Below, in pieces: positions 2,153 to 10,136 of a stretch of DNA of 21,789 nucleotides (positions are counted from its first letter, which is position 1; every line of letters begins with the position of its first letter). Under the pieces are notes generated by a model that saw nothing but the letters and a program-made list of their open reading frames with translations, made no database searches and had not been told where the DNA came from. This DNA is from a virus, in IMG/VR virus record IMGVR_UViG_3300044675_000841, positions 1 to 21,789 of that record, one strand, 5' to 3'. The position numbers and the translations under genes were made by a program.

Positions 2153-2541
2153 CGAAAGTAGAAATTATAGAAAGCCTGATTAATGAATACGGCTTAAAAT
2201 CAAAGAACCGAAGTAGAGATTACATATATCGCAGGTACTACCTTTACAACGAACTGCGCAAAATTGACTACACCTTAACCGAAATAGGAAATATGTTTGG
2301 TGGTAAACATCACGCTACCATCCTGCACGGACTACGTCAACACGAAGACCTTCACAGGTTCGGATACGAAGACTACAAGATAGCTACAAGGCGAATAGAC
2401 GAGGTCTTATACGGTGCAACTCTTCCTTACTACGATGATTCACCTGACTTGGTTAAAGACGTTCTAAAGGCAAAAACGTACACGCAGTTTAAGAAGATTC
2501 AGCGACACATAAAATTAGGTAAATACGAAAAAAATTTATAG
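2149..2541 (+). CDS. DnaA domain IV-like DNA-binding protein, 130 aa
   Basis: Residues about 25-66 resemble the C-terminal DNA-binding domain (domain IV) of the replication initiator DnaA: a helix rich in Arg/Tyr (RRYYLYNELRK), then the turn LTEIGNMFGGKHHATILHGL. The last part parallels the DnaA signature, in which GGRDHxTVxHA contacts the DnaA box. There is no AAA+ ATPase domain, so this is a stand-alone domain of 130 residues rather than a truncated DnaA. It could recognise origin repeats or recruit or compete with host DnaA. It is the last gene of the first early block; the next gene begins 150 bases later behind a promoter element and RNA candidate. Family likeness is strong at the motif, weaker elsewhere. 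Confidence 0.72.
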   Translation: MTKVEIIESLINEYGLKSKNRSRDYIYRRYYLYNELRKIDYTLTEIGNMFGGKHHATILHGLRQHEDLHRFGYEDYKIATRRIDEVLYGATLPYYDDSPDLVKDVLKAKTYTQFKKIQRHIKLGKYEKNL

Positions 2542-2570
2542 CTGATGCAACTTTTTTGATAGTTATACGT

Positions 2571-2578
2571 TATATTTG
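2571..2578 (+). promoter_or_regulatory. -7 element TATATTTG of a probable promoter
   Basis: The octamer matches TAnnTTTG exactly and is the same variant used in the promoters at 6802 and 9589. There is no TTG at the usual 17-23 base distance; the nearest (2556-2558) is only 12 bases upstream. Transcription would begin near 2584, at the base of the structured RNA that follows. Confidence 0.55.
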
Positions 2579-2584
2579 TAGACG

Positions 2585-2672
2585 AGTTGGCTGGACACCA
2601 TAAACTCTTAAGGTATTATTGACCCTTGTATTGATTCGCAAGTCCAGCCGCGATGAGATGCAGGGGTTTTTT
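2585..2672 (+). ncRNA. Candidate structured RNA or attenuator upstream of the replication operon
   Basis: GGCTGGAC (2589-2596) is perfectly complementary to GTCCAGCC (2642-2649), with one extra wobble pair, closing a 45-base loop. Inside the loop, ACCCTTG (2622-2628) can pair either with the local TAAGG (2609-2613) or with CAGGGGT (2661-2667), which runs into six T (2667-2672). The second pairing would form a pseudoknot or terminator-like structure. The predicted transcript start falls at the stem base. It may be a small RNA or a leader controlling the replication genes. I recognise no known RNA family. Confidence 0.5.
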
Positions 2673-2691
2673 ATTGACTAAAAATTATATT

Positions 2692-2862
2692 ATGACTGAA
2701 AAAGATTCTTTTGTAACATTAAATGAAGATGAATTTACTATCTACATTGGAGAAATGACTGGTAAGTTAATTGTAAAACCAAATTCAAATTTAACATTTG
2801 AAAAAGAAGAGGTTGCAGACTTGATTAAAATTTTAAAATATTTTTATGATCGGATGGATTAA
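2692..2862 (+). CDS. Hypothetical small protein, 56 aa
   Basis: The product starts MTEKDSFVTLNEDEFTIYIG, with an acidic beta-like N-terminal half and a C-terminal helix (KEEVADLIKILKYFYDRM). ATG 2692 is chosen over 2653: the longer form would add residues encoded by the U-run and stem of the candidate RNA. The gene overlaps the replication initiator by 17 bases, so translation of the two is likely coupled. No family is recognised. Confidence 0.6.
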   Translation: MTEKDSFVTLNEDEFTIYIGEMTGKLIVKPNSNLTFEKEEVADLIKILKYFYDRMD

Positions 2863-3505
2863 AATACATCGCAAGTTTTTAGAGTGGGAATGGTTCAATA
2901 AATCGGAGGCAGTACACTTGTTTATTTATATGCTTTTAAAAGCTAACCACAAGGATGGTAAATGGCAAGGCATTGAAGTAAAAAGAGGTCAGTTCATTTC
3001 GTCTTTAGGTAACATTTCTAACGCTACTGGTATATCAATTCAGACGATTAGAACCATTTTAAAAAAGTTGGAAAAGACTAACGAAATTGAAGTAAAATCA
3101 ACAAGCCAATTTACTATCGTAACTATCTCAAAATATGAATGTTACCAAGATGAAAACGATGAGACTAACAAGCCACTAACAAACAATCAACAAGCGACTA
3201 ACAAACAACTAACAACAAACAAGAATGAAAAGAATGAAAAGAATAATAAATATAGCTTTTTAGCTTCGCTACTTGAAAACGGATTTGACGAAAAGTTGTC
3301 TCTTGAATGGATGGAAGTTCGTAAACAATTGAAAGCCGTAAATACTGAAACTGCGTTCAACTCATTTATGAGCCAAGTACAAAAACACGGAGGAGATCGT
3401 AACCATATTTTAAGAAAATGCGTAGAGCGTTCGTGGAAAGGATTTAACGCTAATTGGCTTGAAAAGGAAAACGATAGATTATTAACCGCACTAAAAAATA
3501 ACTGA
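2846..3505 (+). CDS. DnaD-like winged-helix replication initiator, 219 aa
   Basis: The N-terminal 100 residues resemble phage replication proteins of the DnaD/DnaB N-terminal winged-helix type: GWIKIHRKFLEWEW, then RGQFISSLGNISNATGIS and a recognition-helix region (QTIRTILKKLEKTNEIEVKS). A Thr/Asn/Lys/Gln-rich linker covers about residues 104-132, and a helical C-terminal domain follows (134-219). The family binds origin DNA and loads the replicative helicase, which is encoded immediately downstream with a 1-nt TGATG overlap. The linker DNA carries five 11-bp direct repeats followed by an AT-rich run, resembling the lambda O gene, where the origin lies inside the initiator gene. The exact subfamily is uncertain. 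Confidence 0.78.
   Translation: MIGWIKIHRKFLEWEWFNKSEAVHLFIYMLLKANHKDGKWQGIEVKRGQFISSLGNISNATGISIQTIRTILKKLEKTNEIEVKSTSQFTIVTISKYECYQDENDETNKPLTNNQQATNKQLTTNKNEKNEKNNKYSFLASLLENGFDEKLSLEWMEVRKQLKAVNTETAFNSFMSQVQKHGGDRNHILRKCVERSWKGFNANWLEKENDRLLTALKNN
3164..3218 (+). repeat. Five tandem 11-bp iterons inside the initiator gene
   Basis: ACTAACAA occurs at 3164, 3175, 3197 and 3208, and a degenerate copy ATCAACAA fills the slot at 3186, giving an exact 11-bp period over five units. Eleven is not a multiple of three, so the units fall in different codon frames and the repetition is not simply a protein repeat. They would lie on one DNA face, like replication iterons. Confidence 0.75.
3219..3262 (+). 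other. AT-rich segment next to the iterons, possible unwinding element
   Basis: Directly after the iterons comes an A-rich run with AAGAATGAA at 3221 and 3230 and a partial third copy at 3239, ending in AATAATAAATATAG. Together with the iterons it has the layout of a phage origin: repeats for the initiator plus an easily melted region. The 9-base period is codon-based (Lys-Asn-Glu), so this half is weaker evidence. Confidence 0.5.
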
Positions 3506-4449
3506 TGCTACTAAAACAAGGAGACTCACTACAATACCTACTCGATGTTAGAGATGGTAAAATCAAACAAGGACTCGGACTTGACTGCTTTTTGGATGAG
3601 CATTTAAAATTCAAGCCTAAACAACTAAACATCATTTTAGGACACGACAACGTTGGTAAGACGTATTGGATTAACTGGTACTTTATTACGCTTGCACTTA
3701 AACACGGACTAACGTTCTGCATTTGGTCAGGCGAGAATCAGAAAGGTCAAATCCTGCGAGATATGATTCAAATGTACCGAGGCAAGCACTTCAGTAAATT
3801 AAGCCACAATCAAATCAGCGGTGATCTTGCGTACTTGGAGCAGTTCTTTACGTTCATAGACAACTCGAAATTGTACAAACCTGATGAGATACTTGAGCTA
3901 TTTAAGAAGAGCGGTGCTAATGTAGGACTTATAGACCCATTTACAGGTTTAGACCGTGAGATGAGCTTTTCAGGTAACTACGAATTTATGAATAAGGCAC
4001 GTCAGTTTGTGAATCAAAACGGAATGACAATCTACATAAACACGCACCCTAACTCCGAATCAGGTAGAGGAGGTAACTTGTATGCAGAAGGAGAGTTAAA
4101 AGGGCATTTAAAAGCACCTTTAAAAGACCATATTGAAGGCGGTAAGAGCTTTACTAACCGCTGCGATGATATGTTAGTCATTCACCGATTGATTAAACAT
4201 CCCGAACATAAGTACAAAACTTGGATTCAAGTAGAAAAGGTCAAGGATATGGAGACTGGAGGTAAACATACGGAGATGGATTTTCCTGTGATATGTGATT
4301 TCAATTCAGGTATCGGATTCCAAATAAACGGAGTAGATCCTTTAGCGCCATTCCGACCAAACGAGAAGCAGATGGTCATACCAAAAGACGGACAAATAGA
4401 AAGTACATCGGATAAACTCCGTAGATTAGCAAACCAAAACCCTTTTTAA
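3505..4449 (+). CDS. RecA/DnaB-fold replicative helicase-like ATPase, 314 aa
   Basis: The protein has a single RecA-fold core. Walker A is GHDNVGKT at residues 46-53, a catalytic-type Glu lies in WSGEN (77), Walker B is VGLIDP at 140-145, and the sensor-like INTHP is at 178-182. The order and spacing match the DnaB C-terminal/RepA-like helicase family, which unwinds DNA at replication forks. It lacks the DnaB N-terminal domain, being about 310 residues rather than 450. It follows the DnaD-like initiator with a 1-nt overlap, the expected partner pair. A RadA/RecA-like recombinase is less likely, given this context. Confidence 0.8.
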   Translation: MLLKQGDSLQYLLDVRDGKIKQGLGLDCFLDEHLKFKPKQLNIILGHDNVGKTYWINWYFITLALKHGLTFCIWSGENQKGQILRDMIQMYRGKHFSKLSHNQISGDLAYLEQFFTFIDNSKLYKPDEILELFKKSGANVGLIDPFTGLDREMSFSGNYEFMNKARQFVNQNGMTIYINTHPNSESGRGGNLYAEGELKGHLKAPLKDHIEGGKSFTNRCDDMLVIHRLIKHPEHKYKTWIQVEKVKDMETGGKHTEMDFPVICDFNSGIGFQINGVDPLAPFRPNEKQMVIPKDGQIESTSDKLRRLANQNPF

Positions 4450-5118: not shown

Positions 5119-6285
5119 ATGAAAAAAATTTTGTTAAAATCAAAAATACTCAATGATAAATACACAGAATATGTATACGATACTTTTGAAATTCAAAATA
5201 GAAATGAAACATCAGTAAGTATATTATATGACATAAGTAAAATAAATTATTTTGAATGGAATATAGGTGTAGTTTTAGGTAGTAGCGGAAGTGGAAAAAC
5301 AACAATTTTAAAATCACTTGGTCAGTTTAAAAATGTCAAATTTGATATAGATAAACCTTTGATTAGTAATTTTGATTGGTTAGAACCTAAAGACGCATCA
5401 TTGGTATTAACATCAATGGGTTTATCATCTATTCCAACTTGGTTAAGACCTTTTCATACTTTAAGCAATGGAGAAAAGTATAGGGCAACATTAGCATATT
5501 TAGTTGCATCATCTAAAGATGGAGAAGTTATTTTAGTTGATGAATACACATCTGTAGTTGATAGAGATGTGGCTAAATCAATGAGTTTTGCATTACAAAA
5601 ATATATCAGACGAGTAAACAAAAAAATTATTTTAGCATCTTGTCATTATGACATATTAGAGTGGTTAATGCCAGATTGGACTTGTTCACCGCAAAAAGGA
5701 GGCGCACTCGAAAGGTGTGACTATCGAAGGCACGGAAGACCAAAAATCGAATTACAAGTTAGTAGAGTCGAACCTAAAACTTGGAACTTCTTTAAAAAAC
5801 ATCATTATTTAACGGAAGACTTAAATAAATCGGCAAAATGTTTTTTGTTTGAATTTAACAATCATCCAATTGCAATATGTTGTGTATTAAATACACCAAG
5901 AAATAATAACCCTAATGGCGTATCAATATCAAGAATAGTTGTTTCTCCAGATTATCAAGGTTTAGGTTTAGGCTCTAAAATATGTAATTTTATAGGTGGA
6001 ATTTTTTTAAATAATAATAATGATTTATATATAAAAACAGTGAATCCTGCTTTAGGAGAATACTTCAATAATAATGATAATTGGATTGGCACTTCACATA
6101 ATATGAAAAAACGAATTGATGTTAAATATGCAAAAGAAAAAGGATATAAAAAAAGATTAGAAAGGTTTTCATATTGCCACAAGTATGTTGGAAAAACAAT
6201 AATTGGATATGAAGATTTGATGTTTCCAATAGATAAAATGCGTGAAAATAAAATGAATGAAAATCAATTAAAATTATTTATATGA
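5119..6285 (+). CDS. ABC-ATPase fused to GNAT acetyltransferase-like domain (COG2401-type), 388 aa
   Basis: Domain 1 (about 30-190) is an ABC ATPase without membrane segments: Walker A GSSGSGKTT at 54-62, signature LSNGE at 115-119 (usual LSGGQ), Walker B VILVDE at 137-142, D-loop SVVD at 145-148 and H-loop His176. Domain 2 (about 212-330) is GNAT-like: R/Q-x-x-G-x-G/A appears as QGLGLG at 280-285 after RIVVSPDY. A HHY triad (228-230) near its start recalls the His-Tyr of phage Mu Mom, a GNAT-fold DNA-modifying enzyme. ABC-GNAT fusions are known as COG2401, of unresolved function. Base composition is visibly more AT-rich than neighbours (runs of AAT codons), suggesting separate acquisition. 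It starts in the AACGCTATG-like context and overlaps the NinG gene by ATGA. A DNA-modifying role is inference. Confidence 0.82.
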   Translation: MKKILLKSKILNDKYTEYVYDTFEIQNRNETSVSILYDISKINYFEWNIGVVLGSSGSGKTTILKSLGQFKNVKFDIDKPLISNFDWLEPKDASLVLTSMGLSSIPTWLRPFHTLSNGEKYRATLAYLVASSKDGEVILVDEYTSVVDRDVAKSMSFALQKYIRRVNKKIILASCHYDILEWLMPDWTCSPQKGGALERCDYRRHGRPKIELQVSRVEPKTWNFFKKHHYLTEDLNKSAKCFLFEFNNHPIAICCVLNTPRNNNPNGVSISRIVVSPDYQGLGLGSKICNFIGGIFLNNNNDLYIKTVNPALGEYFNNNDNWIGTSHNMKKRIDVKYAKEKGYKKRLERFSYCHKYVGKTIIGYEDLMFPIDKMRENKMNENQLKLFI

Positions 6286-9611: not shown

Positions 9612-10136
9612 ATGGACAAAATTACTACATTAGCAAAACACCACAAAGAATGGCTATCAGTAGTCCGCACATTTGGTGACGAGTTCCTTGCTGAAGACAT
9701 CGTACAGGAAACATACCTCCGCATATTACGTTTAAATCATATAGACAAGATAGTAACGGATGATATTAATAGAGGGCATATGTGGTTGACGTTGCGAAGT
9801 GTTTACATTGACCACATCCGAAAGCAGAAGATGGATAGGTTAGATTTAAACGATGTTTATGATTTATCTTATGAAGAACCAGTCATAGCAAAACACGAAT
9901 CATTGGAGAGAATCTATGAGAGAATAGAATGGGAGATTAAAGGTTGGAATTGGTACGACCAAAAGTTGTGGAAGATATACAAAGACGAAAGAAAACCAAT
10001 GCGTCAAATAGCAGATGAAACAGGAATCAGTTTAAAGTCTATTTTCCTAACTATAAAATCTTGTAAAGAAAAAATACGTCAATCGGTAGGCGATGATTAT
10101 ACCGACTTTTTAAACGAAGAATTTGAATTAATATAA
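9612..10136 (+). CDS. Phage sigma-70/ECF-like RNA polymerase sigma factor, 174 aa
   Basis: Region 2 is visible as FLAEDIVQETYLRIL (25-39), a close match to the ECF sigma DIVQETFLRxW consensus that binds the polymerase clamp and the -10 DNA, followed by MWLTLRSVYIDHIRKQK. Region 4 is visible at about 114-156: LWKIYKDERKPMRQIADETG, then ISLKSIFLTIKSCKEKIR, a helix-turn-helix for the -35 DNA. It would redirect host RNA polymerase to phage promoters. It has its own strong host-type promoter and lies immediately ahead of the packaging and structural genes, suggesting a late switch. Phage-specific sigma-like regulators without full sigma activity are an alternative. Confidence 0.82.
   Translation: MDKITTLAKHHKEWLSVVRTFGDEFLAEDIVQETYLRILRLNHIDKIVTDDINRGHMWLTLRSVYIDHIRKQKMDRLDLNDVYDLSYEEPVIAKHESLERIYERIEWEIKGWNWYDQKLWKIYKDERKPMRQIADETGISLKSIFLTIKSCKEKIRQSVGDDYTDFLNEEFELI

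Follow-up and report, generated by a model that had tools for sequence, protein, structure and literature searches.

A probable iteron-type replication origin within the initiator gene of an uncultivated phage, and its 11-bp spacing among relatives

Lambdoid origins were reportedly treated by Grosschedl and Hobom in 1979, Lactococcus phage Tuc2009 by McGrath in 1999, and the RepA_N initiators by Weaver in 2009 and Schumacher in 2014. In phage lambda, the initiator's sites are set midway within its own gene, with an AT-rich region adjoining, according to PMC7466680, which also describes the lambda iterons as 19-bp imperfect inverted repeats and O as existing as dimers. The gp38 protein of phage SPP1 binds direct repeats inside gene 38, beside an AT-rich unwinding element (PMC6316719), and SPP1 has a second origin, oriR. 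In Francisella phage KIRK, the replication gene fhv_0043, which carries a Phg_2220_C domain, is predicted to hold a putative origin with four iterons (PMC7924643), and the iterons of the Vibrio cholerae satellite PLE1 are given as three semi-palindromes of about 30 bp in an intergenic position (PMC8263062).

The window analyzed here is the whole of the uncultivated virus record IMGVR_UViG_3300044675_000841, 21,789 bases classed as linear, in which an original prediction had placed a candidate origin of five 11-bp units inside the replication initiator gene, mirroring lambda ori. We conclude that positions 3164-3259 are very probably the replication origin of this phage, an origin of iteron type encoded in cis in its own initiator gene, which by analogy would function in the manner of lambda ori yet outside the lambda family. 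This reading builds on computed results: the repeats themselves, DNA conserved beyond what the protein requires, repeat types that are inherited with the binding domain and co-vary with it, and an AT-rich neighbor. An iteron origin within an initiator gene is a known kind. A family-wide spacing of one helical turn was not found described: among titles and abstract openings of the open literature, in which older reports may exist, we found no description of 11-bp iterons in initiators with the window-type N-domain.

The likeness to lambda proved to be one of layout, with sites internal to the initiator gene beside AT-rich DNA, and not of family, as the N-domain HMM reached lambda O only at E = 0.67 (11-protein set, lenient) and P22 gp18 at E = 0.047 (1-protein set, lenient); the window's N-domain and lambda O may nonetheless share a winged helix-turn-helix (wHTH) fold. 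Lambda iterons are 18 bp long and the distances between their starts are 20, 24 and 23 bp, whereas the window has 11-bp direct units, and the gene after the initiator is P in lambda and a helicase-like gene in the window. SPP1 gp38 and oriL, compared by description, resemble the window in having in-gene sites and an AT-rich element. KIRK, likewise compared by description, shares Phg_2220_C with 2/73 relatives of the window initiator, and the intergenic PLE1 iterons are unlike the in-gene 11-bp units. The rep gene of Tuc2009 is annotated 'contains origin of replication' and holds four CAACCAA units every 11 bp (0/2000 shuffles, in a stretch chosen after the units were seen), but the family HMM does not recognize the N-domain of its product (E = 0.15), and a lag of 15 in another part of the gene outscores lag 11; the rep gene of TP901-1, annotated 'experimental', has no lag-11 array.

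The array and its surroundings in the window

Flavobacterium phages supply all of the ten best phage matches to the window's large terminase (52% identity), so the window likely comes from a phage of Bacteroidota. As predicted, the array lies inside a replication initiator gene (Table 1): the 219-aa product matches phrog_2514 'DnaD-like helicase loader' (E = 3.2e-31), phrog_6451 'primosomal protein' (E = 2.8e-25) and phrog_678 'replication initiation O-like' (E = 2.8e-21) in profile searches. The curated DnaD C-terminal domain PF07261 is absent from this protein and present in 2/73 of its relatives (best E = 1.1e-18). The last base of the initiator gene is the first base of a helicase-like gene, whose product matches phrog_18375 DNA primase/helicase (1.3e-18) and phrog_19 DnaB-like (1.6e-06).

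Table 1. Features of the putative origin and of the genes around it (positions in the window)
Feature	Position	Strand	Basis
Replication initiator / helicase-loader-like gene, 219 aa, holding the array	2846-3505	+	Profile matches
N-terminal winged helix-turn-helix domain, residues 1-101, presumed iteron-binding	2846-3148	+	AlphaFold2, structural matches
Predicted recognition helix, residues 65-77	3038-3076	+	Model; co-variation peak at residue 66
Iteron 1, ACTAACAAGCC	3164-3174	+	Letters, TRF, lag self-identity
Iteron 2, ACTAACAAACA	3175-3185	+	Letters, TRF, lag self-identity
Iteron 3, ATCAACAAGCG, degenerate	3186-3196	+	Letters, TRF, lag self-identity
Iteron 4, ACTAACAAACA	3197-3207	+	Letters, TRF, lag self-identity
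Iteron 5, ACTAACAACAA	3208-3218	+	Letters, TRF, lag self-identity
AT-rich run, presumed DNA unwinding element and C-domain joint	3215-3259	+	80% AT
Exchangeable helical C-terminal domain, residues 133-219, presumed helicase-recruiting	3242-3502	+	Swaps, AlphaFold2
Helicase-like gene, directly downstream of the initiator gene	3505-4449	+	Profile matches

Elsewhere in the window, a stand-alone 130-aa HTH protein resembling DnaA domain IV is encoded just upstream of the initiator gene (2149-2541; Bac_DnaA_C, E = 4e-09), and a terminator-like hairpin followed by a T run stands between this DnaA-like gene and the next (2621-2672; folding of 2575-2685 gave z = -2.0, with 8/200 shuffles equally stable). 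The region 5119-6285 encodes a 388-aa protein with matches to an ABC-type ATPase and a GNAT acetyltransferase domain and to phrog_11143, of unknown function (E = 2.4e-130), and 9612-10136 encodes a possible phage sigma factor (Sigma-70 region 2, E = 2.8e-04, under the curated cut-off). No tRNA was found in the whole window, and no Rfam element at 2300-3600, where the single match was sub-threshold (E = 0.23).

The five units stand directly one after another, with ACTAACAA at 3164, 3175, 3197 and 3208 and its two-mismatch form ATCAACAA at 3186; a degenerate unit in this third place recurs in other members of the window's class. These starts are the predicted ones. TRF reports 3164-3215 with period 11, 4.7 copies and a score of 62, and period 22 scores 77, while lag-11 self-identity at 3164 is 31/41, the top value of lags 4-40 anywhere in the window (runner-up, 29). 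Single units are not rare, as eight copies of ACTAACAAAC with at most one mismatch occur in the window against 3.3 expected (eight being reached by 1/100 shuffles), three of them inside the array; what is unusual is the regular spacing.

Because the period is not a multiple of three, codon repetition had been thought ruled out as its explanation. Permutation of the linker codons never reached the window's lag-11 score (0/5000), and synonymous recoding of the same protein reached it in 68/5000 cases, or in 20/1000 when any lag of 5-30 that is not a multiple of three was allowed. Part of the periodicity is therefore carried by the residues, and for the window alone the repeat goes only moderately beyond what they force; deciding between DNA and protein as the leading element takes more than one gene. 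These matching recodings, together with the good conservation of linker residues within the window's class, are what would be expected if the periodicity were a by-product of a repetitive linker rich in Thr, Asn, Lys and Gln and kept for its protein properties, a reading to which we return with the relatives below.

The AT-rich stretch predicted to follow the units is present (80% AT over 3215-3259); of all 45-base windows, 2.5% have a lower stability. A GC-skew check proposed along with the prediction gave it no support, with minima away from the initiator gene both in the window and in three chosen relatives. These minima, and the Bac_DnaA_C protein encoded just upstream, would suit an origin elsewhere, opened by the DnaA-domain-IV-like protein or by host DnaA, with the repeats serving restart or helicase loading only; we consider this very unlikely, since DnaA-box-like sites show no excess in the window (21 against 27.9 expected), where we rejected a DnaA-box origin, and the initiator-gene array holds the highest lag-11 score of the window and likewise of each of the three relatives, narrowly so in one (22 against 20).

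Spacing and linker DNA among relatives

Scans of viral contigs yielded loci L001-L080 (80 of 175 relatives), L082-L115 (34/34) and, from three scans, L116-L327 (80 of 97, 52/52 and 80 of 94 relatives); the query classes L011, L023 and L080 were picked after their repeats had been seen. One of six search patterns lay in the linker for the 80-of-175 scan and one of six for the 80-of-97 scan, and none did so for the 52/52, 80-of-94 and 80-of-121 scans. An open frame with the window-type N-domain was present in 318/328 sequences (202 distinct; the 10/328 without the N-domain were dropped), and removal of 8/202 distinct sequences without the full N-domain or 100 bases downstream left 194 complete sequences, which formed 52 clusters at 70% N-domain identity. 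A second set, which may overlap the viral one, came from bacterial and archaeal genomes scanned with an alignment of ten N-domains and two patterns, both within the N-domain, a first genome scan with the window's own N-domain having found no relative. From it, 80 of 121 loci were taken and 3/80 dropped, and the 77 usable loci formed 68 clusters, with titles naming Bacteroidota, Clostridia, Bacilli, Chlorobiaceae, Fusobacteria, Gastranaerophilales, Alphaproteobacteria and others.

Within the 90-base stretch that follows the N-domain, lag 11 was the best or joint best of lags 5-20 in the representatives of 42/52 clusters, compared with 2/52 N-domain segments and 4/49 C-part segments. The mean lag-11 score over the 52 clusters was 24.4 of 33, as against 17.0 under synonymous recoding (largest of 300, 18.1) and 14.3 of 33 for base shuffles, and 43/52 clusters passed p < 0.05 one by one. 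In the second set, lag 11 was best or joint best in 54/68 clusters and scored at least 20 of 33 in 57/68; 54/68 exceeded the synonymous null at p < 0.05, and lag 12 was best in 10/68. The unit letters differ between clusters (GACCAACGAGC, GAAACGCAGAC, GGGTCGCAAGC, AACCCGACAGG, GGGCAGATGGA, GGCACAGCAAA and others) and the linker residues change along with them, but lag 11 stays, which indicates that the DNA is what is kept. The comparison proposed with the original prediction, of whether the units persist while linker residues vary, was thus borne out in both sets, and the argument against codon repetition, insufficient for the window alone, stands across clusters.

Synonymous change tells the same way. 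Among the 50 distinct sequences of the window's class, the ratio of synonymous difference to expectation is 0.57 over residues 4-104 and 0.12 over residues 107-125, the latter a value lower than in any of the 88 windows of nineteen codons that begin at residues 1-88. The ratio drops already in the last third of the N-domain (0.27-0.41 for windows starting at about residues 71-91), and the contrast with the nearest stretch is accordingly less than 4.7-fold. Linker residues 105-135 are predicted by AlphaFold2 to be disordered, between a confident wHTH domain and a helical C-domain. This depletion of synonymous change across the repeats, in a linker predicted to be disordered, supports the earlier suggestion that the linker protein is shaped by the DNA. 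We reject codon or amino-acid repetition as the sole cause on the recoding nulls, the clusters and the synonymous depletion, and, with a period that is not a multiple of three and linkers that differ in residues between clusters while lag 11 stays, we regard the by-product reading as scarcely credible.

We propose the 11-bp spacing as a common trait of these initiators, though one with exceptions. Lag 11 scored below 20 of 33 in 10/52 clusters; in five of these a clear chain runs at 11/12 or 12 bp (matched by at most 3/300 shuffles), and the cluster of L023, with 34 members, has a weak chain only (26/300 shuffles). At L187 (1995-2741), five copies stand exactly 12 bp apart, not 11 (0/300 shuffles). 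An 11-bp series (25 of 33) also follows the related N-domain of L414, on a metagenome-assembled contig titled as the archaeon Methanosphaera sp. that could be misbinned.

Among named phages, the family HMM matches the O proteins of Escherichia phages mEpX2 and mEp235, 'Gp18' of Salmonella phage SE1, and loaders of Staphylococcus, Shewanella, Listeria, Klebsiella, Bacillus and Lactobacillus phages (E = 1e-32 to 1e-22) and of a Paenibacillus phage (1e-14), all in an 11-protein set, and Cellulophaga phage phi18:3 encodes a homolog of the N-domain (tblastn, E = 2e-22). An 11-bp array follows the N-domain in mEpX2, mEp235, SE1 and the Staphylococcus, Listeria, Bacillus, Lactobacillus and Cellulophaga phages, homologous initiators that differ from the window's in repeat letters, C-domains and hosts. 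In 16 named phages, hand-picked from match lists and thus non-random, lag 11 was the top lag in 11; in Staphylococcus phage tp310-1 it scored no more than one below the top, alongside lags 22 and 33, and a lag-11 array was absent from 4/16, namely Vibrio 1.189.B (with lag 23 in its place), Paenibacillus phiIBB, Dulem 31 and Shewanella 3/49.

Tests of the AT-rich run, dyad symmetry and co-variation used the 42 clusters with a clear array, leaving out the 10/52 representatives with lag 11 below 20, which were dropped from the repeat-similarity analysis below as well. The 50 bases after the array average 74% AT (A, 57%; T, 17%), compared with 63% and 64% for the flanking coding parts, and are the least stable of the three segments in 36/42 clusters. 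Inverted repeats with 6-bp arms exceeded 95% of shuffles in 0/42 arrays, in a test in which lambda reaches 0.4% and P22 only 7.8%; iterons of the lambda inverted-repeat type are rejected for these 11-bp direct repeats without a dyad.

Presumed binding domain, C-domain and downstream gene

The N-domain is predicted with block means of pLDDT of 86-95 over residues 11-100, and its structural matches are led by CRP/CAP wHTH domains (Z = 9.7), the nearest neighbors being mostly transcription regulators. RepA_N initiators, of plasmids and Vibrio cholerae PLE satellites, may share this wHTH fold. Entries 4pt7, 4pql and 5kbj, which we take to be RepA_N structures, were all matched: 4pt7, 'Structure of initiator', at Z = 8.8 (rmsd 3.2, 91 aligned) and 5kbj, 'Structure of Rep-DNA complex', at Z = 8.1, each tied with other wHTH proteins. 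RepA_N is not among the eight Pfam families found for the initiator at E up to 1, Foldseek with the full initiator model gave no match at E ≤ 0.001, and a sequence search of solved structures returned FNR regulators alone (E = 1.5).

Autoregulation, too, would lead one to expect a wHTH protein whose sites lie within the gene that encodes it, the nearest structural neighbors are mostly transcription regulators, and the GC skew does not mark the array; the repeats could on these grounds be an operator that limits the gene's own expression or blocks transcription, with replication starting elsewhere. The sites, however, lie deep within the gene and away from its start, and an AT-rich run follows them in 36/42 clusters. 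The profile matches, the DnaD C-domains in 2/73 relatives and the helicase-like gene that comes next point to replication, and the Tuc2009 rep gene, alike in layout, is annotated as an origin. SPP1 gp38 is a tested case of such a layout (PMC6316719). We therefore hold an operator to be unlikely and a cis-encoded origin the preferred reading of the array.

To relate the domain to the repeats, we scored how well each N-domain residue explains repeat similarity beyond overall identity among the 42 cluster representatives. The top-ranking of 99 columns was residue 66, which is part of the recognition helix (0.32; the maximum at any column was as high in 60/3000 permutations), followed by residues 70, 75 and 86 and then by residues 27, 37 and 28, which are outside the expected contacts. 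Winged-helix proteins usually contact DNA through the recognition helix and the wing. The co-variation of wing residues 84-91 was reached by 5/3000 permutations and that of helix residues 64-72 by 34/3000; the best 13-residue window was the wing at 79-91 (0.30), to be read beside random sets of 13 columns, which gave up to 0.37 in 500 draws (mean, 0.08). The co-variation with helix and wing is an indirect sign that the N-domain may bind the units.

The initiator genes also appear to be modular. The same C-domain is found behind different N-domains, and the window-class N-domains carry about six kinds of C-domain, judged by eye. Repeat similarity was 0.83 for pairs with the same N- and C-domain (413 pairs), 0.80 for the same N- and a different C-domain (838 pairs, seven clusters), 0.58 for a different N- and the same C-domain (250 pairs, five cluster pairs) and 0.55 when both differed (7838 pairs), with 45/184 sequences of lag 11 below 20 and all pairs of C-similarity 0.3-0.5 left out, and the Mantel test gave rho = 0.50 (0/5000). 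The similarity of the downstream protein, compared after dropping 33/194 sequences without a downstream ORF, was 0.92 with the same C- and N-domain, 0.90 with the same C- and a different N-domain, 0.27 with the same N- and a different C-domain, and 0.09 with neither shared. In these sequences, then, the repeat type goes with the winged-helix N-domain and not with the swapped C-domain, and the downstream protein goes with the C-domain. As N-domain and repeats, and likewise C-domain and downstream gene, are adjacent on the DNA, such co-inheritance could be hitch-hiking, against which the residue-66 signal is modest evidence.

Modeled alone with AlphaFold2, the C-domain has five helices (mean pLDDT, 79.5); Foldseek and VIA gave nothing convincing for its fold, and its match to DnaA_N is weak (E = 0.022). 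Two further loci, L094 (2611-3264) and L105 (2539-3261), combine the window's C-domain with an N-domain missed by the family HMM and an 11-bp series in the linker (23 and 26 of 33, scores without a null), which hints at convergence on one-turn spacing. At L112 (1501-2226) and L113 (2545-3276), a related C-domain follows another type of N-domain, with a lag-33 repeat (25 of 33, not the top lag) and, in the linker of L112, an inverted repeat with 8-bp arms.

A proposed mode of action and its meaning

For 3164-3259 we infer binding, stoichiometry, melting, helicase loading and the start of replication from the features above. The winged-helix N-domain would bind the 11-bp units, and initiator molecules would line up in a head-to-tail row on one face of the DNA, because the units are direct repeats, one helical turn apart and without dyad symmetry. 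The loaded array would strain the adjoining A-rich run until it opens, and the C-terminal domain would recruit the helicase encoded by the next gene. With the sites placed in DNA for a disordered linker, the binding domain and its sites may be inherited as one cassette, while C-domains, with their helicase gene, may be swapped at the AT-rich joint.

Beyond this phage, we find it evenly balanced whether these origins form a widespread class apart from lambda's, with one wHTH family, head-to-tail sites one turn apart in linker-coding DNA, inheritance as a cassette, letters that track recognition-helix residues as a readable code, plug-in C-domains and a one-sided ladder. If they do, the initiators would form such a one-sided ladder along the DNA and not bound dimers as in lambda.

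To our knowledge, the origins of most uncultivated phages are unknown. A spacing rule, an 11-bp period in the linker of a DnaD- or O-like initiator, would let many phage and prophage origins be read directly from sequence, with Bacteroidota, Bacillota and enterobacteria among the hosts. The natural series of paired binding domains and sites would offer a basis from which to derive a recognition code, and the linker would be a plain example of a DNA site that dictates the residues of the protein segment in whose coding DNA it lies.
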